Source: Chromatiales bacterium (GTDB taxonomy: Bacteria > Pseudomonadota > Gammaproteobacteria > Steroidobacterales > GCA-2729495). Taken from it: DNA of 64,000 nucleotides. This document shows, one piece after another, positions 39,502 to 54,889 of the stretch. Where the stretch lies: NCBI GenBank assembly GCA_020831895.1, contig JAFIFS010000007.1, positions 1-64,000 on the forward strand, in the 5' to 3' direction. Numbering within the stretch: position 1 is the stretch's first letter; every line of letters begins with the position of its first letter. The position numbers and the translations under genes were made by a program. The notes under the pieces are model-generated. The model was not told where the DNA came from. It did no database searches and saw only the letters and a program-made list of their open reading frames with translations.

Positions 39502-39565
39502 GTCACCGGCTGGGTGCGCCGGCTGGTGGGAGGTCCGGCGCGTGCCAGCCGCGCGGGGGTTCCAT

Positions 39566-40324
39566 GTGATCGACAGACTCTCGTACCCGCTCGCGCTTGT
39601 GCTTCTCCCGCTGCTTGTCCTGCAGGGGCGCGGCTTGCGCCGCCGGGTGCCCAAGCTTCGCCCGCCCCCCGGGGTTGCTCACGGCAGGGTGCCTGGCACC
39701 GGGAGCGAGTTGCGTCTCGGCATCTTCGGCGAGTCACCCGCCGCGGGTATCGGCGCGTCGACGGCACAGGCGAGCCTGGGTCCGCGCCTGGCTTGCAGCC
39801 TTGCATCCCGCCTCGGCAGGCCGGTTGCCTGGCAGGTGCTTGCAGGAGATGGCTGGAACGCGAGGCGGCTGCTGCAAGCCATGCGTACGGTCGAGGCACC
39901 GCCGCGACTCGATCTGGCCGTGATCGCGCTGGGTGTCAATGACGCGAGTCGCCTGCGTACGGCCCGGGCCTGGCGGCACGACTTGCAGGCGTTGATGGAG
40001 GAGCTTGGTCAGCGCTGGGGACAGCCCCTGGTCGTGCTGGTGGGAGTCCCGCCCATGGACCGGTTCCCGGTGCTTTCGCAGCCCTTGCGCTGGCTCATGG
40101 GCGCGCGCAGCCGCATGCTCGACCAGGTGCTGTCCAGCCTGGCCGCCTCGCATGCGGCCTCCAGATGGGTGCCCGTGGATGTCGGATTGCTTGTGCCGGA
40201 GCTGTTTGCTGCCGACGGTTTTCATCCGGGGGACGCTGGGCACAGGGCCTGGGCAGAGCAGATAGCCGGGGAGGCTGCTGTTCTCTCGATACCGGCGGCC
40301 GCCGGCCACCGGCCCCGTGGCTAG
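39566..40324 (+). CDS. SGNH/GDSL-type hydrolase with N-terminal membrane anchor
   Basis: Protein of 252 aa from GTG 39566 (GGGGG upstream). An uncleaved hydrophobic segment (LSYPLALVLLPLLVL) is followed by a short basic stretch. SGNH blocks: I, GIFGESPAAGIG (Ser nucleophile in GES instead of GDS); III, ALGVNDASRL (Asn); V, DGFHPGDAGH (Asp-His). It is probably an esterase or lipase facing the periplasm. Its C-terminal half is duplicated as a fragment at 41.77-42.1 kb. Its stop shares CTAG with the stop of the convergent VPLPA-CTERM gene. Confidence 0.88.
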   Translation: MIDRLSYPLALVLLPLLVLQGRGLRRRVPKLRPPPGVAHGRVPGTGSELRLGIFGESPAAGIGASTAQASLGPRLACSLASRLGRPVAWQVLAGDGWNARRLLQAMRTVEAPPRLDLAVIALGVNDASRLRTARAWRHDLQALMEELGQRWGQPLVVLVGVPPMDRFPVLSQPLRWLMGARSRMLDQVLSSLAASHAASRWVPVDVGLLVPELFAADGFHPGDAGHRAWAEQIAGEAAVLSIPAAAGHRPRG

Positions 40325-41505
40325 ACGGACTGTCGCCGCCGCAGGACAGGGAGCATCAGCAGGGAGGAAGCGAAGAGCCAGACTGCAGCAGGCAACGGGA
40401 CAATGGTGGCCCGCAGCCACTGCTTGCCAGCCAGCTCGTCGTTCACTGTCGAGAATACGATCCGGAGTTCCTCGCGCAGCTCTGGATAGAGGATTTCGTC
40501 GAACCGATCCAGCAGCGACGCGGCACCGATGAGGTCGAACTGCGACCCGGCCTGTGGCATGAAATCCCCGAGGAGCCTGAGCTCAAGGGTTCCGCCAAGC
40601 TCAGCAGTGCCGCCGACGATCAGCCTGTCGTTGCCGTCTTGACCAAGCTCTAGCAGCAGGCGGCCGCCCGATTCCTGCAGGAAAGTATCGGTGATCTCGA
40701 TCGTGCCGATGGAGGCCCCCGGGCTGATGAGTCCCTGGTTGACCACGCTGCCGCGTACCCTGCCACTGCCAGTGAGTGAGTCCTCTGCGCGCAGTGTCAC
40801 CGGAGCGGGCACCACGATCTCGCCGAACTGGTCCAGGCTGTAGGCGATGCCTGCTTCGCTGGCGATGAAGCTGAATGCATCCAGACCATAACTCTTGCGG
40901 TTCGGGTTGCTCTGGTTCGGGATCACGGCAAAGCGCGCAATCCCTGGTGTTGCGATTGCGATGCGCGTGAATGCGGCATCATCAGGCCTTTCGAAGCGGT
41001 AGCTGCCCAGCAGTATGCCGTCATCCGCGAAGAGCTGGACATCCACCCAGGGAGTAGATCGCCGGGTCGATGGTGCGTCGTCTGTTGTCCAGATCACGTC
41101 TATCGAGATGAACTTGGCAGGGGAGAACGAGAACCGGTTCTGCGCTGGCAGGTAATCGCCAAAAAGAACGTGCGCGCTGGCGCCGTCCCAGAGGGAGCCT
41201 CCACTGTTGTTGCTGACTGAGTAGACAAGTTCACCCGTGGACGGAATGATCCCCGTGCTGGGGGCGGTGGCATATAGCGGCCGTCCAAAGAAGGTGTTGC
41301 GGGCAAAGATGTCGGCGAAAGTGCCATCGGGGCGCAGGAAGGTGCCTATGTTCGCCGACCAGAAGCGCATGTACGCCCCGCTGTCCGGGATTCGTGAATT
41401 CTCTGCATAGAGGTCCGGTTCGAGGCTTGTGAAGGCAGCCTGGGCGGGGCCCGCAAGAAAGCCGAGGCCGAAGAGGGTGGCGAGGCAAGTCAGTTGACGT
41501 GGCAT
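40321..41505 (-). CDS. Exported VPLPA-CTERM protein with a beta-solenoid-like region
   Basis: Surface protein of 394 aa with a signal peptide (MPRQLTCLATLFGLGFLAGPAQA) and a C-terminal sorting signal VPLPAAVWLFASSLLMLPVL followed by RRRQ. That is the VPLPA variant of the PEP-CTERM tripartite signal: motif, hydrophobic helix, basic tail. The middle (residues ~235-330) is low in Cys and rich in Gly and beta-strands (GSGRVRGSVVNQGLISPGASIGTIEI), as in autotransporter-like passenger repeats. It should be processed by an exosortase and is typical of exopolysaccharide-making Gram-negatives. No exosortase gene is in the window. Confidence 0.85.
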   Translation of the reverse strand: MPRQLTCLATLFGLGFLAGPAQAAFTSLEPDLYAENSRIPDSGAYMRFWSANIGTFLRPDGTFADIFARNTFFGRPLYATAPSTGIIPSTGELVYSVSNNSGGSLWDGASAHVLFGDYLPAQNRFSFSPAKFISIDVIWTTDDAPSTRRSTPWVDVQLFADDGILLGSYRFERPDDAAFTRIAIATPGIARFAVIPNQSNPNRKSYGLDAFSFIASEAGIAYSLDQFGEIVVPAPVTLRAEDSLTGSGRVRGSVVNQGLISPGASIGTIEITDTFLQESGGRLLLELGQDGNDRLIVGGTAELGGTLELRLLGDFMPQAGSQFDLIGAASLLDRFDEILYPELREELRIVFSTVNDELAGKQWLRATIVPLPAAVWLFASSLLMLPVLRRRQSV

Positions 41506-42091
41506 CGTGGTGGTTCCTCCCTGATCGCCCGCGAATATCTGTTCTGTTGCCGCTATTGTGCGGTTCTGGAAAAGGCTTCAGTGTGCTACCACGGAGAGCG
41601 CATGCACCATTGCGGGAAACCCTGATGGTCTCGATGCTGACAGGTGGTCCAGGGGCAAGCGTCCGGACGGCGCGGCTGTGTGCTGATGCTGGGCCGCGCC
41701 TTGCCGAGAGCTTCAGGCGCTGACCACAGGGTCCATCGAGACCAGCAACCTCTCGCAGGCCACGTGCGGCGATCGATTGCCTGGCGACAGGATATCCACG
41801 CGGTGATGGACGAGCTCGATCTCCGCTGGGGACAGCCAAGGACCGTCCTGGTGGGCGTGCCGCCCATGGACCGTTTTCCGGTGCTCCCTCAGCCGCTGCG
41901 CTGGATCCTGGGTGTGCGCAGCCGGATACTCGACAGGGAGCTGTCCAGCCTCGCAGCCTCCGGCCGGACCGCTAGATGGGTGCCGGTGGATGTGGACCTG
42001 CTGGTACCCGAGCTGTTTGCGGCTGACGGCTTCCATCCGGGAGATGAGGGGCATCGTGCCTGGGCGGAGCAGATTGGCCGGGAGCTCATGC
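41506..42091. other. Gene-poor scar between the VPLPA-CTERM gene and folE2
   Basis: No complete gene is seen. The left ~200 bases are the upstream region of the VPLPA-CTERM gene. From about 41713 the sequence is debris of two other genes, a DUF1826 tail (minus strand) and an SGNH hydrolase C-terminal half (plus strand), which meet near 41771. Confidence 0.8.
41713..41774 (-). pseudogene. 3' tail fragment of a second DUF1826 gene
   Basis: The minus strand reads RSPHVACERLLVSMDPVVSA and a TGA stop. The intact DUF1826 gene at 52.76-53.37 kb ends RSPHSRAPRLLVSMDPITAH. At the DNA level GGTCCATCGAGACCAGCA is identical in both. Similarity stops abruptly upstream, where the SGNH fragment starts. This is the remnant of a lost DUF1826 copy. 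Confidence 0.7.
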
Positions 42092-42105
42092 TTATCCAAA
42101 GCTGA
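41771..42105 (+). pseudogene. 5'-truncated SGNH hydrolase copy
   Basis: About 110 codons (AWRQDIHAVMDELDLRWGQPRTV onward, then GVPPMDRFPVLPQPLRW, DLLVPELFAADGFHPGDEGHRAWAEQIG) match the C-terminal half of the SGNH hydrolase at 39.57-40.32 kb, with many silent differences. Blocks I and III with the Ser and Asn are missing, so the piece cannot be catalytic. The frame can be read from 41644 but that part is not SGNH-like. Its end overlaps the folE2 stop by 14 bases. Confidence 0.85.
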
Positions 42106-42988
42106 GCTCAACGAAGGCATCGTGCGGGTGCAGGCTCTCGTGATGCTGAACCCTGATCTGCCCGGAGTTATAACGGGACGCCAGTGCCTGCTGCAGTCTA
42201 CGGGCGGCATCCTCCACGTACATCAGGTTCGCCCCGTTCAGTTCAGCGAAGGCCTGCTCGTCGGCGCGCTTGACAGCAGTCTGCACGGGTGTGCCCAGCG
42301 CTTCCTCGATGCGTTCAATCAGCCTGTCCACGCCCAGGTCGGTGGCATCTTCCGGAATGCTGACGGTGACGCATGCCGTGCTGCGCTGGCTATGGGGGGT
42401 CGCGACACTGCCGTGTTTCCGCAGCCATTGTGCTGTATCGGCAGGGCTGACTTCGCTGCGCGCTGAGAAGTCGGACAGGTAGCGGCTCTCCAGCACCTGC
42501 CGGGCGAGCGCTGCCGAGCATGGACAGGTGGATGAGTAGGACACCTTGACCGTGAGCCTGATGGCCAGGCTTAGCTGCGGGCGGATCTCGGCGGTTACTG
42601 TTATCGGGTAGCTTCGCCATCCGGTGAGGCCTGGAGTCACCAGCGCCGGGCGCTCGACCAGATGATCGAGGTGTATCACCACCCTGGCACGCGTGGACTG
42701 GCAGTCAGCATGTGTCTGGACGGCATCCTGGAGCAGTTCCTGAAGCTCCGGGGGTGACAACGATGCTCTGGCGACGAACTCGTGCAGGAGCAGGTACAGG
42801 CGCGACATGTGGATGCCCCGCCCGGCGTTGGCCGGCAGGTCAACAAAGATATCCGCACGAGCGGAGGAGGGTATGCCCGCAGGCGCAAGCCTGACCGGCA
42901 GCTCGATGTCGCGCATACCGACCCAGTCGAGGGAAGGGTCGGCAATGAGCGCGGCGGTCCTGGCTACGTCTGGCAATGTTGCGATCAT
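42092..42988 (-). CDS. folE2: GTP cyclohydrolase IB (zinc-independent FolE2)
   Basis: FolE2 of 298 aa makes dihydroneopterin triphosphate for folate, as FolE does, but does not need zinc. In many bacteria it is induced by Zur in zinc starvation. Motifs: metal-site Cys in YSSTCPCSAALARQ (residues ~150-165) and the ATPHSQRS block (~195-202). VDLPANAGRGIHMSRLY and NGANLMYVEDAARRL are also typical. It overlaps the small gene upstream (ATGA) and so is transcribed from the promoter with the Zur-like palindrome at 43245-43257. No folE or zur gene is in the window. Confidence 0.94.
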   Translation of the reverse strand: MIATLPDVARTAALIADPSLDWVGMRDIELPVRLAPAGIPSSARADIFVDLPANAGRGIHMSRLYLLLHEFVARASLSPPELQELLQDAVQTHADCQSTRARVVIHLDHLVERPALVTPGLTGWRSYPITVTAEIRPQLSLAIRLTVKVSYSSTCPCSAALARQVLESRYLSDFSARSEVSPADTAQWLRKHGSVATPHSQRSTACVTVSIPEDATDLGVDRLIERIEEALGTPVQTAVKRADEQAFAELNGANLMYVEDAARRLQQALASRYNSGQIRVQHHESLHPHDAFVELSFG

Positions 42989-43200
42989 CGGCGGCTCCCT
43001 GCCGTCTGCTGCGCCTGCTCAAACCAGCTGACCACTTTGTGCCAGTGGGCATCGCCGTAGAGCTTGCGAAAGCGCCGGGTTTCCTCGGATTCGGCCTGTC
43101 GCAGGATCGCGAGCCGGCTGGCGACATAGTCCTTGGTGAGATCAAGCCTGCACTCTACTTCAATGCAGTGTTTCCACTCGCTGAAAGTGGCCGGAATCAT
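42985..43200 (-). CDS. Small protein of the folE2 operon, unknown function
   Basis: Protein of 71 aa beginning MIPATFSEWKHCIEVECRLDLTKDYVASRLAILR and ending DAHWHKVVSWFEQAQQTAGSRR. It is soluble and helical, with two cysteines and two or three histidines (EWKHCIEVEC, AHWH) that could bind metal. It is the first gene after the Zur-like box on the minus strand and overlaps folE2 by 4 bases. Such coupling suggests a conserved member of the zinc-starvation set. I do not recognise a named family. Confidence 0.75.
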   Translation of the reverse strand: MIPATFSEWKHCIEVECRLDLTKDYVASRLAILRQAESEETRRFRKLYGDAHWHKVVSWFEQAQQTAGSRR

Positions 43201-43244
43201 GAAAAGTTCCCCAGCTGTCCTTGGGCAAAATCACCAGAGTGAAT

Positions 43245-43257
43245 GTTATACTATAAC
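43245..43257. promoter_or_regulatory. Zur-type operator between folE2 operon and cobN-like operon
   Basis: GTTATA-C-TATAAC is a perfect 6-1-6 palindrome and matches the core of the gammaproteobacterial Zur box (GTTATAnTATAAC). It is 45 bases from the small gene start and 28-106 bases from the possible cobN-like starts, so one site may repress both directions. Confidence 0.85.
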
Positions 43258-43363
43258 TGTCAAGTACGCCTTGGGGCCCTAGGAAATGCGTCGATACTGT
43301 CAGCACGCCCTGTCGAAACAAGGGGCGGTCACGGGGGAGCATCGGCCTCTCTTTATCCTCCGC

Positions 43364-46300
43364 ATGATTCGTGATCTGCGGGTTCGAGCCGCTCTTGCGG
43401 CCCTGATGGTGGCACTTGTCTCGCTGAGCATGCCGGTCGTGGCTGACACACCGCCGCGCGTGGTGATTCTTGCCACCGACTTTGTGCTCGAAGCCAAGCT
43501 GCGTGCGGTCCAGGATGCGGCAATCGAACAGGGCGTCGTGCTTGGTTACTTTATTCCCGGCCAGGCAGAAAATGCCGAGGTATCACGGGCACTTGCAGAG
43601 GCCGACCTAGTGATCATGGACGCGCCGCGACTGAATGACGGGCCGGTCCTGATGCAGGCTTTCGATGAGGCTCTCGCAGCTCATCGGGGCAAGCGGCTTT
43701 CCATCATCGGCGGTATTGCGGCAGGGCTTGGTGGTCTCGGGAGGGCTGAGGCCAGGGCTCTGGGCGTCTACTACGTCAACGGAACCCGCGCAAACTACTC
43801 CGCGTTTTTCCGCTACTTCCTGGTAAACGTGCTCGGCACTGCCGTGGGCGCTGTCCCGGAACCGCTCGAGTTTCCTGCCGCGGGAATCTATCACCCGGAT
43901 CTTCCGGAGCTGGTGACGGCTGACCCAATCTCCTATGCGGACTGGCTTTCTCGCCGGGACCTGCCGGCGGAGCGGGGCACAGTCGGCATCATCATGTCGC
44001 AGGGGCTGTTTCCTTCGGACCAGCTGGAGTTGTTTGATGCGGTGATCAGGAAGGTCGAGGCAGCGGGCGCGCGGCCTTGGGCGTTCTACTTCGAAGGTCA
44101 TCCGCAGGCGCGAATGACTCACCTGACCATGCTGGAGGATCTTCCGGCAGTGGACGTGCTGGTCAACCTGACCCACCTGCGAGGTACCGATCAGCGCATC
44201 TCCGACCTGGTAGACCTCGATGTGGCCTTGATTCAGGGCTTTGTCTACCGCGATGGCGGGCGCGAGGCCTGGCGTGCCAATGCCTCCGGCATTCCGATGT
44301 ATGCCGTACCGGCATTCCTGACGGTTCCCGAGCAGATGGGAGCCCATGACACCGTTGTTATTGCGGCAGAGGAGCGTGGAGAGGCCGTGCTTCTCGAGGA
44401 GCAGGCCAGCTACCTGGTCTCACGCGCGGTGCGGATGGCGCGCCTCAGGTGGGCTCCGGTCGACACGAGGGAGCTGGGCCTGATGTTCTGGTCGTACCCG
44501 CCCGGGGAGCGTGGCGTGTCCGCCTCCCACCTAAACGTGCCTCGGTCGCTGGCCAATCTGCTCGAGGCCCTGAGCGTTGCCGGCTACCAGGTTGAGCAGC
44601 GCAGCGCCGAGGAGCTGGAGATAGCCTTGCCGGCTTTGCTGGACCCGTGGCAGGGCAGAGTCGGCATAGCGGACTGGATCAGCCAGAACGACAGCTGGGT
44701 GGGCCTGCCCCTTTCCCGGTATCAGGCCTGGTACGAGAACCTGCCGGAAGATGTCCGGTCCCGTGTCGAGTCGGCATGGGGCCCCCCCGAGGCTGATCCC
44801 CTGCTGGTTCCAGGCGACACAGGAGAGCCTCTGCTGGTCCTGCCTGCACTGGAGCTTGGTTCCCTGATCATCATGCCCCAGCCGGCACGCGTCACGGGTG
44901 ACGTAAGCCTTGCAAGCTATCACGATGGTGAACTGCCGCCCTCGCATGCTTATCTTGGCGCCTATTTCTACCTGCGTGAAGTGCACGCGATCGATGCGCT
45001 GGTGCACTTCGGCACCCATGGGACGCAGGAGTTTCTCAGCGGGAAGGACAGGGGGCTGTCGATTTACGACGATGCCCTGCTGGTGCTGGGAGACATGCCG
45101 GTGATTTATCCCTACATCACCGACAATGCCGCCGAGGCGCTGCAGGCCCGCCGTCGAGGCCAGGCGGTGACGGTCAGTCATCAACCGCCGCCCTTCGTGC
45201 CGGCCGGTCTCCACGGGGAGATCCAGCTCGTGCACGACCTGATGCACGAGTGGGAAATGCTGGATACGGGCCCCGTTCGCGCCGATGTCGAGCAGACTCT
45301 GATGGCGATGGTGCTGGATGGCACGATCTATCGCGATCTGCAGTGGGACGCCGCGAGACTCGAGGCCGATTTCCCGGCGTTCCTTGAAGAGCTGCATATC
45401 TATATGCATGAACTGGCCAGGGATACCCAGCCCCTTGGTCTGCACACGCTTGGAGTGGCACCGGACCGTCAGCATCGGGTGGCCACGGTAATGCAGATGC
45501 TCGGGGACCCTCTCTATGAGGCGCTGGGTGTCGATGACATTGATGAACTGTTCGCAGTTGACTATGAGCTGATTTCAGAGACCCTGCCTTTTCTCTTTCT
45601 GAGCCGATTCCTGGTCGATGGATCAAGGCCCCGAGACGAGACAGACCCCAGGCTGCGTGAGTTCGCCGAACAAGCGGTGCGCCTGGATGCTGCGCTCCAG
45701 GCCTCCGGGGAGATCGACGCGATACTTGCAGCGCTGAAGGGTCGCTATGTTCCCGGTACCTCAGGCGGCGACCCGCTTAGAAATCCGGATGTCCTGCCCA
45801 CGGGACGCAACATCTTCGGCTTTGACCCCTCACGAGTGCCCAGCGAACGCGCCTGGCGTATCGGCCAGACGCTGGCAGACGAACTGATCAGCCTGCACCT
45901 GCAGAGTCACGATGGCTTTCCCAGAAGTCTGGCAATGTCTCTCTGGTCATCCGACACGATGCGCCAGCAGGGCGTGCTCGAAGCGCAGATGCTCTGGTTG
46001 CTGGGACTGCAGCCCGTGTGGGACCGCGCCGGCCGGCTCGCACGTCTAGACATCATTCCTGCCGAAGCGCTCGGGCGCCCCCGTGTCGACGTCGTGGCTT
46101 CAGTTACGGGCGTTTACCGTGACCAGTTTGGCCATTTCATCGGGCACTTGTCCTCGGCGCTACAGGAGCTGGCGGCGCTCGACGAGCCCGCGAATCCGGT
46201 TGCCGAGCACAGCCGTGCACTTGCTGCACGCCTTTCAGGCAACGGCCTCGATCCATCACAGGCTCTGGCTGTCTCTGCGCTACGCGTGTTTTCCAACGAA

Positions 46301-47227
46301 GCAGGCAGCTATGGGTCTGGAGTGCCCGACGCATTGCTGGATACGGAGGGCTGGGCATCCGAGGACGAGCTGGTGGCGGACTACCTCGGCAGGATGCAGT
46401 ATGCCTATGGCGCCGGTTCCGATAAGTGGGGCGTGCGCACGAGTGCTGTCAACTTGTATGCGGAGCACCTGCAGCACGTAGAGGGTGCCGTGCTGAGTCG
46501 TTCCTCGAACCTGCACGGGCTACTGTCCACAGACCACCCCTTCGAGTATCTCGGCAGCATTGCGATGGCGGTGCGCAGCCTTACCGGCAGGAATCCCGCG
46601 CTCTACATCAGCAACCTGCGTAACCCGACTGGCGGGCAGAACACGACGGCAGGCCGATACCTGTCAGGAGAGCTGCGCAGCCGTTATCACCATCCCGGCT
46701 GGATCTCCGGCATGCAGAACGAGGGGTATGCCGGCACGCTCGAACTCCTGAACGTCGTCAATAACTTTTTCGGCTGGCAGGTGACAGATCCGGACACAGT
46801 CAGGGCTGACCAGTGGGCATCCTTCCATGATGTCTACGTGAGAGACAGTCTTGACCTGGGACTGGAGGCCTGGTTTGCCGAACACAACGCCGGGGCCCTG
46901 GCCCGGATCCTCGATCGCATGCTGGAGGCTGTCCGGCGGGACTACTGGGCCCCCGACGAGGAAGTGCTGCGGGATCTTGTCGAGCGTCGTCAGGCACTGA
47001 TCGACACCGAGCCCCTGGAAGCGCGCCTGGAAGAGTTCGCAAGTGCGCTTGCCAATGGTTTCGGTCTCGATGCTGCCTTTGGTCAGGCACAGACGGTAAT
47101 CGGCCAGCAGCTGCGTCCGGTATCACCCCCGTCGCAGCCCGTGGCTCTGGATACCACCTGGCTGGTCGTGGCCGGTCTCTTCCTGCTCATGGGGGCGGGC
47201 GCACTGCGTCAGATGGTACGAAGCTAG
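43364..47227 (+). CDS. Exported, membrane-anchored CobN/HmuS-like chelatase
   Basis: Protein of 1287 aa of the CobN/magnesium chelatase H family, from ATG 43364, chosen because it gives a signal peptide (MIRDLRVRAALAALMVALVSLSMPVVA). An upstream ATG at 43286 adds 26 residues. The CobN signature HFGTHGTQEFLSGKDRGLSIYDD lies near residue 550, and a second block is NLHGLLSTDHPFEYLGS. The C-terminus has one transmembrane helix (TTWLVVAGLFLLMGAGAL) plus a short basic tail. Cobalamin CobN is cytoplasmic with CobST; here the protein is exported, with no cobS/cobT but with a channel, DUF2149 and a TonB receptor. This matches HmuS of haem loci and the zinc-induced PA1922-PA1925 type operon. It probably removes metal from an imported complex. 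Confidence 0.88.
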   Translation: MIRDLRVRAALAALMVALVSLSMPVVADTPPRVVILATDFVLEAKLRAVQDAAIEQGVVLGYFIPGQAENAEVSRALAEADLVIMDAPRLNDGPVLMQAFDEALAAHRGKRLSIIGGIAAGLGGLGRAEARALGVYYVNGTRANYSAFFRYFLVNVLGTAVGAVPEPLEFPAAGIYHPDLPELVTADPISYADWLSRRDLPAERGTVGIIMSQGLFPSDQLELFDAVIRKVEAAGARPWAFYFEGHPQARMTHLTMLEDLPAVDVLVNLTHLRGTDQRISDLVDLDVALIQGFVYRDGGREAWRANASGIPMYAVPAFLTVPEQMGAHDTVVIAAEERGEAVLLEEQASYLVSRAVRMARLRWAPVDTRELGLMFWSYPPGERGVSASHLNVPRSLANLLEALSVAGYQVEQRSAEELEIALPALLDPWQGRVGIADWISQNDSWVGLPLSRYQAWYENLPEDVRSRVESAWGPPEADPLLVPGDTGEPLLVLPALELGSLIIMPQPARVTGDVSLASYHDGELPPSHAYLGAYFYLREVHAIDALVHFGTHGTQEFLSGKDRGLSIYDDALLVLGDMPVIYPYITDNAAEALQARRRGQAVTVSHQPPPFVPAGLHGEIQLVHDLMHEWEMLDTGPVRADVEQTLMAMVLDGTIYRDLQWDAARLEADFPAFLEELHIYMHELARDTQPLGLHTLGVAPDRQHRVATVMQMLGDPLYEALGVDDIDELFAVDYELISETLPFLFLSRFLVDGSRPRDETDPRLREFAEQAVRLDAALQASGEIDAILAALKGRYVPGTSGGDPLRNPDVLPTGRNIFGFDPSRVPSERAWRIGQTLADELISLHLQSHDGFPRSLAMSLWSSDTMRQQGVLEAQMLWLLGLQPVWDRAGRLARLDIIPAEALGRPRVDVVASVTGVYRDQFGHFIGHLSSALQELAALDEPANPVAEHSRALAARLSGNGLDPSQALAVSALRVFSNEAGSYGSGVPDALLDTEGWASEDELVADYLGRMQYAYGAGSDKWGVRTSAVNLYAEHLQHVEGAVLSRSSNLHGLLSTDHPFEYLGSIAMAVRSLTGRNPALYISNLRNPTGGQNTTAGRYLSGELRSRYHHPGWISGMQNEGYAGTLELLNVVNNFFGWQVTDPDTVRADQWASFHDVYVRDSLDLGLEAWFAEHNAGALARILDRMLEAVRRDYWAPDEEVLRDLVERRQALIDTEPLEARLEEFASALANGFGLDAAFGQAQTVIGQQLRPVSPPSQPVALDTTWLVVAGLFLLMGAGALRQMVRS

Positions 47228-47239
47228 ACGGGGAAACAG

Positions 47240-47731
47240 ATGAATCCGATAGAAGTCATGATGTACGAGATCGCGAGGGTGTTTCTCCTTCCGGTACTGC
47301 TCATCATCCTCGGCCTGTTCTGCTATGCCTTTTTTGTCCTTGGATCGTTCCTGATAGAGGCCTGGCAGCGGCGGGATCCGAACAAGCGCCGTGCTGTCTG
47401 CCGCCTGCGCCGCTCGGTTGGCGCGGGCGGGGTGGTCGACTCGGAGGCGCTTCAGCTGCGTATTCTGCAGCTGCTCGAGCCGCTGAGGATCAGCACCAGG
47501 ACCGCGCCGATGCTTGGCCTGGTGGCGACGATGATCCCGCTGGCGCCGGCCCTGCTCGCCCTCGGGGATGGTGATCTCGCCGTGGTAGGGCAGAACCTCG
47601 TCGTGGCCTTCGCCGCCGTCATCCTGGCGCTCCTGTCTGCCTCGATCACGTTTCTTGTCCTTTCGGTCAGGCGGAGGTGGCTGCTGGCTGCGCTGCACGA
47701 GCTGGAAGCTGAAGCAGGGCAGCCGTCATGA
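47240..47731 (+). CDS. MotA/TolQ/ExbB-type proton channel protein
   Basis: Membrane protein of 163 aa. The N-terminal transmembrane helix is VFLLPVLLIILGLFCYAFFVLGSFLIEAW. A cytoplasmic stretch is followed by two helices: TAPMLGLVATMIPLAPALLAL and QNLVVAFAAVILALLSASITFLVLSV, matching the TolQ/ExbB core with its Gly-Leu...Gly-Thr/Met-Pro signature. It is 12 bases after the cobN-like gene and overlaps the DUF2149 gene. It likely corresponds to HmuU, a channel that uses the proton gradient to drive the cobN-like protein or the receptor. Confidence 0.88.
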   Translation: MNPIEVMMYEIARVFLLPVLLIILGLFCYAFFVLGSFLIEAWQRRDPNKRRAVCRLRRSVGAGGVVDSEALQLRILQLLEPLRISTRTAPMLGLVATMIPLAPALLALGDGDLAVVGQNLVVAFAAVILALLSASITFLVLSVRRRWLLAALHELEAEAGQPS

Positions 47732-48042
47732 ATCGCAGGTTCCTGGAGCTCGATGAGGACGATGACCCGGTGTTGTCGGTGGTCAACGTCGTGGACGTTT
47801 TCCTGGTGGTCATTGCTGTGCTTCTGGTCGTTGTTGCAATGAATCCGCTGAACCCCTTCGCGGCGGAACAGGTCATCGTGACGATCAACCCCGGCTCGGA
47901 GGATATGCAGGTCATCGTCAAGGATGGCGAGCAAATGACCCGCTATCAAACCGTGGACATGATCAGTGAGGGCCAGGGGGTGCGGGCCGGCATCACCTAC
48001 CGCCTGGCAGACGGGTCGCTGATTTACGTGCCTGAAGAATAG
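47728..48042 (+). CDS. DUF2149 protein (HmuT-like, ExbD-like position)
   Basis: Protein of 104 aa. It has an acidic N-terminus (LDEDDDPVLSVVNVVDVFLVV), one transmembrane helix (VFLVVIAVLLVVVAMNPLNPF) and a periplasmic domain of ~60 residues (VIVTINPGSEDMQVIVKDGEQMTRYQ). The topology resembles ExbD/TolR, and it follows the TolQ/ExbB-like gene with a 4-base overlap. DUF2149 proteins occur in this arrangement with CobN-like genes. The likely role is stator partner of the channel, coupling proton flow to the periplasmic chelatase. Confidence 0.85.
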   Translation: MNRRFLELDEDDDPVLSVVNVVDVFLVVIAVLLVVVAMNPLNPFAAEQVIVTINPGSEDMQVIVKDGEQMTRYQTVDMISEGQGVRAGITYRLADGSLIYVPEE

Positions 48043-48136
48043 CTGCGTTCGCGTCCTGGAAAGACCTGCTTTTCACTCGGGTCATCTACACACGCTTGCC
48101 GGAATGGCGGCGACTGGAAACACAGGGAGACTATTC

Positions 48137-50392
48137 ATGCTGAGACCTGTCAGGAGGTCCGGACCTTTTTCTGTCCTCAGCGCATTGTCGGTTCTGCTTT
48201 GCGTGGCACCTGTACATGCGGATCAGCGGACCTACATCGATGAGATTCTGGTGATTGCCGATCCAAGGGGCAGTGATGTTCCGGGTTTCGGGGAACAATT
48301 CGAGAGGTTCCTCCGGCGTCCGGGTGCCGAGACAGTTGTCGACCTCGGCGGCGTGACCAACCGACGTCTGGCCAACCTCGAGGATGCGCTTGAAATGACG
48401 CCTGGCATTTTCACCGCGGCGCCCAACCAGGGATCCCAGGGGCTTTTTTCTATCAGGGGTTCGGATATCGCAACAGCGGGACCGCGTAATGGCAGGGGAA
48501 TACGAGCCTTTATTGACGGCGTGCCCGTTGGCCGCACGGAAGCCGGACTCACTACTGCGTTGATTGATCTCCAGGCGGCGCAGTACGTAGAAGTCTACCG
48601 TGGACCCAACAGCCTGCGCTTCGGAGCCATCGCATCGGGTGGAGCGCTGAACTTCGTATCGAAGACGGGACGCAACTTCATGGGCACAGGCGTCCAGGCA
48701 CAGGTCGGCTCATTCGACTTCTGGCGGTCAACGGTCGAGCAGGGATGGCAGGGCGATTCCCTGGATGCCTACGTGAACGCAAGCGGCAGCTCCACCAATG
48801 GCTTCCGCGGCCAGTCACAGTCAGGCTTCGGCCGGGTAAATGCCAACATCGGCTGGCAGGTCAATGAATCGATGTTTTCACGAAGCTATGTCTCCGTGGG
48901 CTTCACTCGCCAGGAGCTGGCAGATGCGCTGCCGCTGAACGAGATACGCGAACGACGCCGGGAGGCAGGCCCGATTGCGAGTATCTATGACCAAGATATC
49001 AACTTCGACTATCTCCGCCTGGCCAATCGCACCAGCTTTGACGTAGGCGAAAGCGGCCAGCTGCAGGTCGATGCGTACTTCCTTGCTACGCGGCTTGATC
49101 ACCTGCCGTCACCGTTCGCTGGCCTGATCGACAACACCTGGCTGGAAGGTGGTGCCGGGGTGCGCTGGACGGACAGCAGGGTGATTCTGGGCCTTCCGGT
49201 CGAGGTCGTGTCTGGACTGCGCGTGAACTATACCGATGGAGATTTCCAGAGGTACCAGCATCGTGACGCGGGACGCACCAAGGGTCCACTGGTCTCGGAT
49301 CAGGTCTTCGAAGCGCTGCTGGTGGAGAGTTACGGTGAAACAGCGTGGCTGCTGACCGAGAACCTGAGGGTGTTCCTGGGTCTTCAGGCGGTGTACACCA
49401 CCCGGAAGCTGCAAGACTTCCCCATCGACCCCCCGGTGGAGTTCATCCCGCCGATAGGTGGAATTTTCGGCTTCTTCCCCTTTCTCGACAGGTGGCAGCC
49501 CAATCCGGGCAGCAGCCTTGTTGATCAGAGCTATGACCGCTCATTCCGGCGTGTAAACCCCAAGCTGGGCTTGAACAGGCAGTTCAGCCCCGGCTGGTTC
49601 GTCTTTGCCAGCATCGCCCAGAGCTACGAGGTGCCAACAGGTGCAGACCTCGCTGACAGGGCCTCGGCAGCCGCACGCTTGCCTGACCAGGATTTTCCGG
49701 AGCTGCGCGCCCAGAGCGCCTGGACCGCCGAGGTCGGGATCAGAGGAGGTGGAGAGCGGGTGTCCCTCGATCTGACGCTTTACCACATGGCTCTGCGTAA
49801 CGAGATACTGACCCGGTGTGACGATCCGGTGGGCAACCCTGGCTGTCCGACGACGGTCGCATTCAACGCTGACCGGACGCTTCATCAGGGGCTGGAATTC
49901 GGCGGCAGTGCCACCCTGTTGCCGGATCTGCTGGGTACCGGCAGTTCTCTGGAGCTTGATCTCGTGTACAACCTGTCGCGGTTCAGGTTCCTCAACGACG
50001 AGTTCTTCGGCAGCCGCCGCCTGCCTGTCATACCGCGGCATGCTGGCCAGGCCGTCGCCCGGTTCGAGCACCCTTCAGGTTTCTATTTCGGGCCGGACTA
50101 TCGCTACATAGGAAGCCGCGCGGTGACCTATGACGGCAGCGGGGGCAGCGCGTTCGTCGTCCCTGCCGTTGGCCTTTGGGGGTTGCGCAGCGGCTGGCGT
50201 CAGCCTGCGGGAACCTGGGAAGTTTTCGTCCAGGCCACCAACCTGACGGACAAGGTGTTCGTTTCCACGTTCAACGCCTTGCCCACACAGCCGTTCGTGA
50301 CCCAGCCGCCCCCTGGCAGCCTGCTCGCGAGCCCTTCGGTTCGCCCCGGTGAGGGGCGCGCGTGGTACTTCGGGGTCAATCTGCGTCTCTAG
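48137..50392 (+). CDS. TonB-dependent outer-membrane receptor
   Basis: Receptor of 751 aa from ATG 48137 (GGGAGA upstream). A signal peptide is followed by a TonB-box-like DEILVIA, then a plug domain (LANLEDALEMTPGIFTAAPNQGSQGLFSIRGSDI, FIDGVPVGRTEAGL, EVYRGPNSLRFGAIASGGALNFVSKTG), and a 22-strand barrel with terminal GEGRAWYFGVNLRL. It is the last gene of the cobN-like operon. By context it imports a metal complex, in the Zur setting probably zinc-related. Its ligand cannot be read from sequence. It converges with the SOD operon. Confidence 0.92.
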   Translation: MLRPVRRSGPFSVLSALSVLLCVAPVHADQRTYIDEILVIADPRGSDVPGFGEQFERFLRRPGAETVVDLGGVTNRRLANLEDALEMTPGIFTAAPNQGSQGLFSIRGSDIATAGPRNGRGIRAFIDGVPVGRTEAGLTTALIDLQAAQYVEVYRGPNSLRFGAIASGGALNFVSKTGRNFMGTGVQAQVGSFDFWRSTVEQGWQGDSLDAYVNASGSSTNGFRGQSQSGFGRVNANIGWQVNESMFSRSYVSVGFTRQELADALPLNEIRERRREAGPIASIYDQDINFDYLRLANRTSFDVGESGQLQVDAYFLATRLDHLPSPFAGLIDNTWLEGGAGVRWTDSRVILGLPVEVVSGLRVNYTDGDFQRYQHRDAGRTKGPLVSDQVFEALLVESYGETAWLLTENLRVFLGLQAVYTTRKLQDFPIDPPVEFIPPIGGIFGFFPFLDRWQPNPGSSLVDQSYDRSFRRVNPKLGLNRQFSPGWFVFASIAQSYEVPTGADLADRASAAARLPDQDFPELRAQSAWTAEVGIRGGGERVSLDLTLYHMALRNEILTRCDDPVGNPGCPTTVAFNADRTLHQGLEFGGSATLLPDLLGTGSSLELDLVYNLSRFRFLNDEFFGSRRLPVIPRHAGQAVARFEHPSGFYFGPDYRYIGSRAVTYDGSGGSAFVVPAVGLWGLRSGWRQPAGTWEVFVQATNLTDKVFVSTFNALPTQPFVTQPPPGSLLASPSVRPGEGRAWYFGVNLRL

Positions 50393-50524: not shown

Positions 50525-51223
50525 TTACGGGTTCATGGCCTCCGCATACCGCCGGCTGACCGAATCCCAGTTCACTACGTTCCACCAGAAATCCAGGTAG
50601 GCCCCTCGGCGGTTCTGATAGGCCAGATAGTAGGCATGTTCCCAGACGTCGATACCCAGGATGGGTACACCCTGGTCCGGGACAATGTCCATCAGGGGGT
50701 TGTCCTGGTTCGGGGTCGATGTCACTGCCAGCTTGCCTTCAGCGGTCACGATCAGCCAGGCCCAGCCGGACCCGAAGCGTGTCGCCGCAGCGCGGTTCAC
50801 CAGGGCCTGCATCGCCTGCAGGGAGCCGAAATCACGCTCGATGGCTGCCAGCAGTTCGGCCGACGGTTCGCCACCGTGGCCTGCGGGTGCCATCACGTCC
50901 CAGAAAAGCTTGTGGTTGTAGTGACCTCCGGCATTGTCGCGAACGGCCATGTTGAACCTGGAGATCATGGGCATGATTTCCTCGAGGCTCATATCTCGCA
51001 GCTCAGGGTAGTTTTCCACCTGAGCGTTGAGGTTGGCGACATAGGCGCGATGATGCCGGCCGTGATGGATCTCCATGGTTTGCTGGTCTATGTAGGGTTC
51101 CAGCGCCGAGCTGTCATAAGGCAGAGGCTCCAGCTCGAATGGGCCGGCCGTCGCGATCCCGGAAAAAAGCCCGAAAACGACGGGCCACGCATACCGATGC
51201 AGCCGGAGTTTTGGTACAGGCAT
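50525..51223 (-). CDS. Exported Fe/Mn superoxide dismutase
   Basis: Fe/Mn-family SOD of 232 aa from ATG 51223 (AAGGAG 6 bases upstream). An ATG 15 bases earlier lacks a site. It has a signal peptide (RLHRYAWPVVFGLFSGIATA), unusual because Fe/Mn SODs are mostly cytoplasmic. Metal ligands: His in EIHHGRHHRAYV, His in GGHYNHKLFWDVM, Asp and His in GIDVWEHAYYL. It is the last gene of the CobW-DUF1826-CobW operon. In zinc starvation it would replace periplasmic Cu/Zn SOD. The choice of Fe or Mn is not certain. Confidence 0.92.
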   Translation of the reverse strand: MPVPKLRLHRYAWPVVFGLFSGIATAGPFELEPLPYDSSALEPYIDQQTMEIHHGRHHRAYVANLNAQVENYPELRDMSLEEIMPMISRFNMAVRDNAGGHYNHKLFWDVMAPAGHGGEPSAELLAAIERDFGSLQAMQALVNRAAATRFGSGWAWLIVTAEGKLAVTSTPNQDNPLMDIVPDQGVPILGIDVWEHAYYLAYQNRRGAYLDFWWNVVNWDSVSRRYAEAMNP

Positions 51224-51234
51224 AGCTTGCTCCT

Positions 51235-51570
51235 TCATTTCTGGGGAATTCTGTCTGCCGCAGGCATCCTGATGAGAAACCCGGTCGCCGTGTCTGAATA
51301 TACCGTTTTCAGGTCCGCGATGATGCCTCTGCGGCGGGCTTCGAGAAGTCTCCGACCTACAGGCAGGAAAGGCGTCTCGCCTGTGTTCTCGCCGGCGTGA
51401 TCAACGACGACCAGTGTGCTCACTGCGGATTGCGCCTTGGCGGACTCCAGAAGAGAGACAACCGCTTCAAGCGCCTGCCCGGACGAGAGCCCACGCAGGT
51501 CAAGCGCAGTGTCTGCTTCGCCTAATGACTCACCCAGCTGGCCGACAGCGCTCTTGTCCAGTACCGTCAT
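51235..51570 (-). CDS. Small protein with weak Smr-like pattern, unknown function
   Basis: Protein of 111 aa. LDLRGLSSGQALEAVVSLLESA followed by STLVVVDHAGENTG and GRRLLEARRRGIIADLKTVYSD has the order and spacing of a Smr domain (strand-DLxGL-helix-strand-HGxG), but the His-Gly-x-Gly is not preserved. It may equally be a TusA-like or other small alpha/beta protein, so no function is assigned. Its ATG overlaps the CobW stop (ATGA), and its end overlaps an alternative SOD start, so it belongs to the operon. Confidence 0.7.
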   Translation of the reverse strand: MTVLDKSAVGQLGESLGEADTALDLRGLSSGQALEAVVSLLESAKAQSAVSTLVVVDHAGENTGETPFLPVGRRLLEARRRGIIADLKTVYSDTATGFLIRMPAADRIPQK

Positions 51571-52721
51571 CAGTGATCCGTCATGCCTCGATTCTGGTTC
51601 CAGGCCTCATCAGGCTGCGGGCGACCCGTCAACCCCCCAAAGGTCCACTGGTCAGGTCCCGTGGAGTCACTGCTGGCCTCGGTCAGGATACGCAAGGTGT
51701 TACGAAGCAGCGATTCCTCTATGCCTCGGGTGATAAAGACGATCCGGCTGGTCTGGTCATCATCCGGCCATTCTTCGAGGACTATGGGTGGGTGGAAAAT
51801 GTGCTGCACCCCGTGAATCACGATGGGTGCTTTGAGTTCGACCAGGTTGATAAGCCCCTTGATTCGAAGAAAGTCCGGGCCGCGGAACGACAGCAGCGTT
51901 TCCAGCCAGAGATCAAGCGTCACGCCCCTGATGGGCTTCTCGATCCGGATACTCAGTGCGCGAATGTCATGGCTGTGACGGTTCACATCATGCCCGTGCC
52001 CGTGCCCGTGCCCGTGCCCGTGGCTATGCCTATGCTCATGATCCTCCGCGCCCAGCCAACGGGCAACGTCGGGCATCCGGGTATCGGGGTCGTAGAGTCC
52101 GGAGTTCAGCAGCACCCATGCATCCATATGTCCGTTGATGACGCTAGTACGGGGCGCAGCGGGATTGAGCGACTCCAGTCGGCGCTCCAGCGAGTCCAGA
52201 GTCTCCTTGTCTGCAATATCACTCTTGGTCAGGAGCAGGTGATCGGCGATGGCTGCCTGCCGGACTGCCTCATTGTGCCGATCAAGTGTGTCCAGCCCGT
52301 TGACGGCATCGACTGTGGTAAACACCGCGTCGAGTCGATACCTGTGCGTGACGCTGGCCTCTGTCATCAGGGTATGCAGGATTGGTGCCGGGTCCGCGAG
52401 CCCTGTGGTCTCGATGATGACCCTGTCGAACCAGCAGCGGCCGTTGCGGGAGAATCTGCTTGGTGCTTCCCGAAGTGTTCTGGCCAGATCACCACGAATC
52501 GTGCAGCAGAGGCAGCCGCTGGCCATTTCCACCACGACATCCTCGCTGCTGTGCGACACGAGCGCATGATCCAGTCCGATCTCACCGAACTCGTTGATCA
52601 GGACCAGGGTTCGCTGCAGACCGGGCTGCCTGAGCAGCTTGTTGAGCAGGGTGGTTTTCCCGCTGCCAAGAAATCCGGTCAGTAGCGAGACGGGGATCAG
52701 GTCCCCGGGGTTCATCAACAT
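51570..52721 (-). CDS. CobW/COG0523 GTPase with His-rich metal loop (copy 1)
   Basis: G3E-family GTPase of 383 aa acting as a metallochaperone. Walker A is GFLGSGKT at residues 16-23. [10 protein letters not shown] is the switch region. The CxCC motif GCLCCT coordinates zinc. LTKSD is the guanine specificity motif. A His/Gly loop at residues ~230-255 (alternating HG units flanked by HEHRHSH and NRHSHD) offers many metal ligands. Zur-regulated members deliver zinc to client enzymes when it is scarce. It is 34 bases after DUF1826 and overlaps the next small gene. Confidence 0.93.
51993..52022 (-). repeat. Hexamer microsatellite coding the His-Gly loop
   Basis: CCCGTG is repeated five times without interruption (51993-52022). 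In the CobW frame on the minus strand each unit codes His-Gly. Slippage here would change the number of metal-binding His residues in frame. Confidence 0.9.
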
Positions 52722-52755
52722 TCGTTAGCCTGTTGCTTGCGGCCGTCGCCTGGGG

Positions 52756-53370
52756 TTAATGAGCTGTGATCGGGTCCATCGAGACCAGCAGCCGCGGCGC
52801 CCGTGAGTGAGGCGACCGATGGACCACTCCACCGAACCGGTCAGTCCAGGTTCCGCCTTTCAGCAGCGACCAGGCAGTCGTGGTCAGCTGCCTGATCCCG
52901 GCACCAGCGCGCAGTGGGGGCGCCTCTATTGTCCGATTGGCCAGCAGTGCCCGGTCAACCTCATCGCAGGCGATCCATTCCGTGCCGGGACCGGTAATCG
53001 TCATCAGCAGCCGGCAGGGCACCTGGTCGACATGGAAACGCGGACACATGGGCGCCCGCAAAGAGGTTACGCGGACCCCCACCCGGTCGCAGCCCAGAAG
53101 TTCACTGAGCAGCTCGCCAGCCAGTGCGATTTCACTGCCCATGGCCTGCTGCCACGAGGGGTCTGCACAGCCCGACAGTCCGGTGAGGGCTGCATTGATG
53201 TCGCCTGCAGGCTGCTCCCAGCGCGCCTGGATCACCTGGCCAGCTTCCAGGAGCCTGGCGGACTGGCTGCTCAAGGACCCGTCACTCGCGCGTCTGACCG
53301 TGATTAATTCAACATCATCCTCGTAGATTCTGCTGAAATCCACGAGCTGATGGCTGGCCACCTGGCGCAT
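52756..53370 (-). CDS. DUF1826 family protein
   Basis: Protein of 204 aa from ATG 53370, overlapping the upstream CobW stop (ATGA). DUF1826 genes are regular neighbours of Zur-controlled cobW genes. Blocks: LLGCDRVGVRVTSLRAPMCPRFHVDQVPCRLLMTITGPGTEW and FGGVVHRSPHSRAPRLLVSMD. The HxD in FHVDQ, the distal HR in VHRSP and a following Arg are spaced as in 2-oxoglutarate/Fe(II) oxygenases, but this is my reading of the pattern, not an established activity. A tail fragment of a second copy lies at 41.7 kb. Confidence 0.88.
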   Translation of the reverse strand: MRQVASHQLVDFSRIYEDDVELITVRRASDGSLSSQSARLLEAGQVIQARWEQPAGDINAALTGLSGCADPSWQQAMGSEIALAGELLSELLGCDRVGVRVTSLRAPMCPRFHVDQVPCRLLMTITGPGTEWIACDEVDRALLANRTIEAPPLRAGAGIRQLTTTAWSLLKGGTWTDRFGGVVHRSPHSRAPRLLVSMDPITAH

Positions 53371-54587
53371 CAGACAGCAGCCTCCTCGACCTCGCGCATC
53401 CACTGCGGGAACGGGTCCGGAAGCGTTGCCCAGCTCTCAGATCCGAAAGCAAGCTCCTCGTCATTGAGCAGGCAGGCATCAAGCGCCTTGCGTGCAGCGG
53501 GCTCATCGAGCTGGAGGCCAATGAACACGATTTCCTGGCGACGATCGCCAAAAGGAGGCTCGAACTTGCTTTGAATGGCAGCTCTATGCTCGGGGCGGTC
53601 AGGCCAGCTGGACTCAGGTACTGCGGACCAGAACAAGCCAGCGAACCCGTGGTTCATGATGCCCCCGGCCTGCGACCAGGCCCCTGCCTGGTCGAACCGT
53701 GTGGCGAGCCAGAAGTATCCCTTGGAGCGTACCAGCTCGCCATACCGCCAGCCGCTGGCAAGAAAATCGTACAGACGCTGGGGATGAAACGGCCTGCGGG
53801 CGCTGTAGACAAAGCTCCCGATGCCATACTCCTCGGTTTCCGGGATATGTTCCCCGCGAAGCTCCGCCAGCCAGCCGGGCGCTTCGGCAGCTTCCTCCAT
53901 GCTGAACCGTCCGGTGCCCAGAATGGCCGAGGGCGCGATGCGGCCATGTTCGGAGAGGATGACCTCGGCGCGAGGGTTAAGCCGGCGCAGAGTGGCCAGC
54001 AGGGCATCAAGCTGCTCCCGCTCAACGAGGTCACCCTTGGTCACCACGATCACGTTGCTGAATTCAACCTGTTCGATCAGCAGGTCGGCGATATTGCGCT
54101 CGTCCTCCTCACCGATTTCCATGCCCTTGTCCTTCAGACTGTCAGCCTCCGATAGAAGCCGCGGGAAATTGAAGGCATCCACCACGGTGACCAGGGTGTC
54201 GAGCCGCGAGACGGAAGAGAGGGAGCGTCCCTGTTCATCGGCGAAGGTGAAGGTTTCCGCAACCGGCAGGGGCTCGGAGACGCCAGTCGACTCAATCAGC
54301 AGATAGTCAAAACGTTGCTCATCCGCCAGCCTCGCCACCTCGATAAGGAGATCTTCCCGCAGCGTGCAGCAGATACAGCCATTAGTCATCTCGACGAGTT
54401 TTTCATCCACATGCTGCAGTGACACATCGTCACGGAGCAGCGCTGCGTCGATGTTGACCTCGCCCATGTCGTTGACGATGACCGCAACGCGCAGGCCCTC
54501 GCGGTTGTTCAGCACGTGATTGAGCAGCGTGGTCTTGCCGGCTCCAAGGAAGCCTGACAGCACCGTTACGGGCAGGGGTTTGGCCAT
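53370..54587 (-). CDS. CobW/COG0523 GTPase (copy 2), first gene of Zur-type operon
   Basis: G3E GTPase of 405 aa from ATG 54587 (AGAGGA upstream). Walker A is GFLGAGKT (residues 12-19), [12 protein letters not shown] the switch, NGCICCT the CxCC zinc site and VVTKGDL the guanine motif. The C-terminal CobW_C domain ([19 protein letters not shown]..., GYFWLATR) is of the ZigA/YjiA-like type. It lacks the His-rich loop of copy 1. A Zur-like site lies ~100 bases upstream. It probably supplies zinc to essential proteins in starvation. Confidence 0.93.
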
Positions 54588-54889
54588 GATGCAGTGTCCT
54601 CTGGGGATTTCCCGAACCGGAATGGAGCCTGCCGCAGCTTGTGCCTTTTCCCAGGCCGGGAATGCGTGTCGTGAATGATCAAAAAGATACATTATAACAT
54701 CACGTAAAGTGGGGCAAACTTTCCCTGGACCTGGCTATCAGAACGGAAAACGAGAAAGGAGCCGGTGCGCCTGGTCCTTTGGCCGGCCCTGGACTAGGTT
54801 CGACCACCTGTAACAGGGGCGAGGGAGGGCAGGTCGCTCATTCTTACTCCGGTCCGGCACGACTGCGCGAGCACCCCCGATCTGGCAGT
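54588..54889. other. 302-base divergent intergenic region
   Basis: It separates the CobW operon (leftward) and the dehydrogenase gene (rightward). It contains the Zur-like site and an AT-rich patch at about 54680-54710. No further gene or repeat is seen. Confidence 0.6.
54686..54698 (-). promoter_or_regulatory. Second, weaker Zur-like operator upstream of the cobW operon
   Basis: GATACA-T-TATAAC has one perfect half-site (TATAAC) and one half with 4 of 6 matches to GTTATA, in an AT-rich patch 99 bases upstream of the CobW start. Its position and similarity to the 43245 palindrome support joint control. Confidence 0.6.

Follow-up and report, generated by a model that had tools for sequence, protein, structure and literature searches.

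What a protein of the CobN family does when it is encoded with a putative proton-channel pair and a TonB-dependent receptor behind a Zur-like box is the question raised by an operon in positions 1 to 64,000 of contig JAFIFS010000007.1 (GenBank assembly GCA_020831895.1, Chromatiales bacterium), the 64,000-nucleotide stretch referred to here as the window. Annotation pipelines label such proteins cobaltochelatase and thereby point to vitamin B12, whereas the evidence presented here points to metal scavenging. The operon is tentatively read as a Zur-repressed zinc-scavenging module whose CobN-like protein would be a periplasmic zinc dechelatase, a Zur-controlled cousin of HmuS. A role in zinc is very likely, and extraction of the metal from a carrier is, on sequence grounds, somewhat favoured.

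Operon organisation and predicted Zur control

The operon consists of four forward-strand genes in the order CobN-like, ExbB-like, DUF2149 and TonB receptor, separated by intergenic gaps of 12, -4 and 61 bases (Table 1; start codons were assigned mechanically). The CobN-like protein matches Pfam CobN-Mg_chel at E=4e-278 over ~1066 residues and NCBIfam NF004644 above its cut-off; the ExbB-like protein has a MotA/ExbB-type match (E=1.4e-5) and no NCBIfam match; the third protein matches DUF2149 at E=1e-24; and the TonB matches of the receptor are weak and mixed, giving no pointer to a substrate. Hydropathy assigns three helices to the ExbB-like protein, one to DUF2149, and to the CobN-like protein a single signal-like segment at the N-terminus and a single helix at the C-terminus (residues 1260-1278), after which comes RQMVRS, so that the body of the CobN-like protein should be periplasmic.

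An exact Zur core lies upstream of the operon, and a Fur-family gene of the same genome (assembly 2.8 Mb, 92% complete) matches Zur at 121.8 bits, the next best scoring 42; with box and regulator both present, the operon is a predicted member of the Zur regulon. A preliminary description of the locus had proposed an exported, C-terminally anchored CobN-family protein in one operon with the other three genes, under a Zur box, and both proposals are upheld by gene positions, family matches, hydropathy and regulator. The pattern TGTTATANTATAAC at up to two mismatches occurs in only three places in the genome, namely this operon, a ZnuD-like receptor and the start of zigA. A reversed-pattern control gave 4 matches against 5 for the real pattern, so the count alone proves nothing and it is the positions at zinc genes that carry weight. 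The TonB receptor downstream of the second of these sites has ZnuD as its best NCBIfam match (265 bits, below cut-off), and ZnuA was not found in the genome. Further along from this receptor and its box (L134, G000:C58, 4678-14000) lie DUF3299, ABC permease and ATPase genes, an arrangement that may resemble PA4063-PA4066.

Active-site residues and fold of the CobN-like protein

HmuS takes iron from haem by dechelation, needs His538 for this and binds haem at site 1 through His254 (PMC12583661). Numbered from the ATG at 43364, H271, H552, H1058 and E1061 of the window protein correspond to HmuS His254, His538, His1209 and Glu1212. The His254 equivalent is His in 41/41 proteins of class A, the class of the window protein defined below, and in none of the class B, class C, CobN and ChlH proteins examined; the His1209/Glu1212 equivalents are likewise kept in 41/41 class A proteins, and the His538 equivalent is conserved throughout the aligned classes. 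The window motifs read HFGTHG and DHPFE against HxGKHG and DDxxQ in CobN. A further set of four histidines, H624/H628 and H678/H682, falls on two predicted domain-IV helices and is kept in classes A and C but not in class B, HmuS or CobN; it is a possible metal hand-off site.

An AF2 model (pLDDT 92.7, pTM 0.92) predicts a complete class I chelatase fold. Structure comparison over ~930-1120 residues gives Z 51.5 to CobN 7c6o, 50.6 to ChlH and 41.5 to HmuS 9d26; the model shows the superfamily fold, which fits chelation and dechelation alike.

Promoter and residue classes among relatives

GTDB genomes were scanned by CobN similarity and the best 80 named proteobacterial relatives were kept; being best matches to the window, these over-represent class A. 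Nearly all of the 80 loci carry receptor, CobN, ExbB-like and DUF2149 genes, mostly in that order. Classes were defined by the protein motif at HmuS His1209/Glu1212, LSTDHPFE in class A (the window), LDTDHPFE in class B and LTTDDPFQ in class C, before promoters were scored by class for Zur- and Fur-like boxes against a small number of first-order Markov shuffles (60 per locus). Zur-like boxes precede 36/43 class A loci against 1/32 of classes B and C together (Fisher p=3.6e-13, an overstated value because related sequences are not independent), whereas Fur-like boxes precede 9/18 class C loci against 1/58 of classes A and B. A second sample, 15 loci in an even draw of 398 genomes (box threshold p<=0.05), gave the same division: His254 with the A motif occurred in two loci, both with a Zur-like box against 0/13 of the others, Fur-like boxes preceded each of the two typical class C loci, and the remaining 11 had neither box.

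On a phylogenetic tree, a support of 1.0 is reached by the class A clade of 41, which includes the window protein, by class B and by the separation of true CobN. The window organism itself has a second complete module, of class B (L011, G000:C74, 5035-12218; receptor, ExbB-like, DUF2149, CobN), with no Zur-like box. A bulk scan of class A neighbours (n=147) revealed no dominant family, with three CobW, two DUF1826 and four DUF3526 ABC genes. DUF3526/ABC-2 type transporter genes directly precede the receptor gene in some class A loci (L021 1324-4717, L050 1633-4860), and their products could export an emptied carrier. The module CobN of one locus (L166 1376-8369, G582) shows neither the HxGTHG nor the DH/DD motif in the alignment and is perhaps degenerate or misaligned.

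One class C operon (L062) encodes a haemin receptor above cut-off and ChaN. Class B loci lie near PCuAC, multicopper oxidases, DUF2946 or NiFe-hydrogenase-like genes, a mix that gives no single metal, and two Nitrosomonas class B operons (L083, L034) have in common an upstream palindrome resembling TGTGACAATTTGTCACA, possibly the site of an unknown regulator. On a Runella slithyformis plasmid (L117 386-10000), the module lies with a weakly NicO-like protein inside a hypF-hypCDE cluster, which suggests a link to nickel. A wider proposal, rather doubtful at present, is that a periplasmic class I chelatase or dechelatase driven by the proton-motive force has been adapted to different metals in different classes, to zinc under Zur, to haem iron under Fur, probably to nickel in Runella and possibly to copper, with the ExbB-like/DUF2149 pair replacing the AAA+ ATPase of CobN and ChlH.

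The ExbB-like/DUF2149 pair

Profile alignment places the invariant transmembrane Asp23 of DUF2149 on the transmembrane Asp of ExbD (hhalign probability 56%) and the invariant T97 of the ExbB-like GLVAT motif on the Thr of ExbB GLFGT (73%), giving moderate support to DUF2149 as ExbD-like and to its partner as an ExbB homologue. Among DUF2149 matches found independently (n=22), an ExbB-like gene adjoins in 22/22 and CobN lies within 1.5 kb in 18/22; since nearly all 80 surveyed loci also carry the module, the linkage of the four genes is not chance. Among control genomes, DUF2149 was matched only in Methanosarcina acetivorans, an organism without an outer membrane, which has a CobN-family protein too.

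A canonical ExbD is encoded in addition to the pair in 11 operons, ten of class B and one of class A, some of which also encode TonB; at two loci (L012, L013), CobN, ExbB-like and DUF2149 genes are present with no receptor found nearby. Since the pair keeps company with CobN, and a canonical ExbD is present separately in these eleven operons, the pair more likely powers CobN than the receptor, a reading contrary to the published assignment of HmuU/HmuV, which are held to energise HmuR (PMC12583661). The preliminary description had given the system its own proton channel along with its receptor and had called DUF2149 ExbD-like. The pair does stand in the operon and the Asp alignment agrees, with moderate support and a poor model; the channel is better regarded as dedicated to CobN, the receptor being able to use the ordinary TonB system.

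Proposed mechanism and alternatives

Under the proposed scheme, zinc starvation would release Zur from its box and switch the operon on, and the receptor, energised by the ordinary TonB-ExbB-ExbD of the cell, would import a zinc complex to the periplasm. There, anchored in the inner membrane through its C-terminal helix, the CobN-like protein would take this complex into its class I chelatase cleft, where His552 and the His1058-Glu1061 site would remove Zn(II); their counterparts in HmuS act, or have been proposed to act, on haem iron. Proton flow through the ExbB-like/DUF2149 pair would drive the conformational cycle, a task for which cytoplasmic CobN and ChlH need ATP-driven AAA+ subunits, and the freed zinc would pass to an inner-membrane importer. 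Proton drive of CobN is a tentative element, and a tetrapyrrole as carrier is plausible, though more doubtful. A tetrapyrrole such as a zinc porphyrin is our guess for that carrier: to our knowledge, every superfamily member characterised so far has a tetrapyrrole as its substrate, and the window protein keeps only one (His254) of the two axial haem ligands of HmuS, which would suit a five-coordinate zinc porphyrin. The literature yielded nothing direct on zinc porphyrin as a bacterial zinc source, and we know of no such protein for which zinc extraction from an imported complex has yet been shown.

Several observations weigh against zinc dechelation, for which both activity and substrate are putative. 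Met79, the other site-1 haem ligand of HmuS, is not kept, the aligned window position being Pro by reading of the alignments (an Aureibacter protein encoded in an hmuY operon has Arg there); the methionine-rich domain-IV insertion was not found in the 1287-residue protein, and no hmuY gene lies beside the operon. The overall fold score of the model favours CobN over HmuS, His1209 occurs in ChlH/BchH too and so is alone no sign of dechelation, and the tree joins the window protein to HmuS weakly, with no firm grouping. The residue classes follow phylogeny and may reflect descent rather than metal. As for the motor, the homology of the pair to ExbB and ExbD is only moderate, the DUF2149 model is poor (pLDDT 67) with all structure matches at Z<3 and uninformative as to fold, and at one class C locus (L043) a TonB gene stands in the operon and no canonical ExbD was seen, which is compatible with the pair serving TonB.

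That locus also fits a different arrangement, in which the CobN-like protein and the pair form a dedicated TonB-like energiser, which would pull on the accompanying receptor and so let zinc in, free or in chelated form, with no dechelation. The receptor nearly always adjoins the module, the CobN-like protein is anchored in the membrane beside an ExbB/ExbD-like pair, HmuU/HmuV have been assigned to the receptor HmuR (PMC12583661), and PA1922-25 has been called a non-chelated zinc importer (PMC10393844). Such an energiser is nevertheless unlikely, as it would have no need of the active-site His and Glu that are invariant in the class, and canonical ExbD beside the pair in eleven operons, some with TonB, the loci with no receptor found nearby, and DUF2149 in Methanosarcina all speak against it.

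The chelatase could also run forwards, loading a periplasmic macrocycle with zinc or cobalt for zinc storage or for cobalt as a zinc substitute. The periplasm holds no ATP for AAA+ partners, no CobT (PF06213) was found in the 92% complete genome, His/Glu replace the Asp/Gln of CobN and T replaces K in HxG[K/T]HG, and expression under zinc lack argues against the spending of zinc; insertion is thus improbable, even though the fold and the NCBIfam name are those of CobN and znuA mutants of P. aeruginosa contain more cobalt (PMC4542158). Cobalamin synthesis, which the preliminary description named as an outcome that would overturn its reading, is not supported: CobT was not found in the genome, the window gave no Rfam riboswitch match, and the operon has a Zur box. 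Control by a cobalamin riboswitch was rejected, with no Rfam match in the window or in the 16 class B and C loci examined. Equally hard to credit is that haem, or some other iron tetrapyrrole, is still the substrate of the Zur class, with zinc starvation setting no more than the time of expression, for example for porphyrin recovery. Retention of all four HmuS residues would suit haem, but Met79 is not kept, haem iron has a sister class linked to Fur, and the Zur-like boxes occur throughout the class, with zinc genes as neighbours at this locus.

If the dechelatase reading is true, the stripping of metal from carriers would be a general strategy that is not confined to haem, and bacteria would have a dechelation route for taking up zinc; PA1922-PA1925 would acquire a function, and HmuU/HmuV and DUF2149 a role as the proton motor of a chelatase. 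Metal specificity can be tested directly through the residue and promoter classes.

Genomic neighbourhood

The operon and the facing ZigA unit together form a predicted zinc island, and the Zur box lies in the intergenic region that the operon has in common with the divergent folE2 (Table 1). Beyond folE2, two similar SGNH-hydrolase-like frames (39542-40324 and 41644-42105) flank a VPLPA protein, the second being shorter and resembling a partial duplication. Several proteins (window 40321-41505; L135 3123-3794 and 4693-5382) end in VPLPA/VPVPAAVWLF and a basic tail, which is the PEP-CTERM/exosortase sorting type.

Table 1. Positions of the operon, its Zur-like boxes and neighbouring genes in the window
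Feature	Position	Strand	Length	Remarks
CobN/HmuS-like class I chelatase, predicted exported	43364..47227	+	1287 aa	C-terminal membrane anchor; longer ORF from ATG 43286
MotA/TolQ/ExbB-like proton-channel protein	47240..47731	+	163 aa	invariant T97 in GLVAT motif
DUF2149 protein	47728..48042	+	104 aa	one TM helix; invariant Asp23
TonB-dependent receptor	48104..50392	+	762 aa	weakly siderophore/PqqU-like
Zur-like box	43241..43262			sequence match; exact core GTTATACTATAAC at 43245-43257
FolE2 (alternative GTP cyclohydrolase)	42092..42988	-		divergent neighbour
ORF overlapping folE2 start	42985..43200	-	71 aa	leads divergent unit; no family match
ZigA zinc metallochaperone GTPase	53370..54692	-		heads facing zinc-linked unit; NCBIfam equivalog, 634 bits vs cut-off 600
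Second, weaker Zur-like match	54686..54699			two mismatches; at ZigA start
Remainder of ZigA unit	50525..53403	-		Fe/Mn SOD, 111-aa unknown, second COG0523 GTPase, DUF1826; outside module

Comparison with known systems

The preliminary description regarded the locus as a candidate for an undescribed system, which is an overstatement: a homologous Zur-regulated operon of unknown function has already been published in P. aeruginosa, and the operon in the window is a further, uncharacterised example of that type. PA1922-PA1925 has a Zur-bound promoter and is strongly induced by zinc lack, its function being unknown (PMC4542158, PMC8531726, PMC11761036). The likeness to it that had been proposed is supported by comparison with the published description, in which receptor, CobN-like, ExbB/ExbD-like and small proteins likewise stand under a Zur box (PMC4542158); gene order differs, the receptor being last in the window operon. 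A review considers Zur control of PA1922-PA1925 unique to P. aeruginosa among pseudomonads (PMC10393844), whereas the Zur-like boxes here recur across alpha- and gammaproteobacterial members.

With CobN/ChlH/BchH, the window protein has in common the six-domain fold over 1100 residues and the HxGxHG motif; it differs from CobN in its predicted signal peptide and anchor, the absence of CobT and of adjacent cob genes, and His/Glu where CobN has Asp/Gln. The channel pair resembles ExbB/ExbD (TolQ/TolR, MotA/MotB) in its ExbB-like transmembrane motifs and in having a single-helix partner whose invariant Asp aligns with that of ExbD, but is shorter, lacks an NCBIfam match and is tied to CobN rather than to TonB. 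The parallel drawn earlier with HmuS of the Bacteroidota hmuYRSTUV locus (PDB 9d26) extends to the active site: an exported, anchored class I fold, the equivalents of His254, His538, His1209 and Glu1212, a receptor and an ExbB-like protein (HmuU) recur, and DUF2149 lies in the same operon in the Aureibacter hmu locus, as it does here. The window system lacks HmuY, Met79 and the Met-rich insertion, has a Zur box and the extra domain-IV four-His set, and falls in a separate clade. It is thus a Zur-specialised variant related to HmuS rather than HmuS itself, and its operon type is that of PA1922-PA1925.

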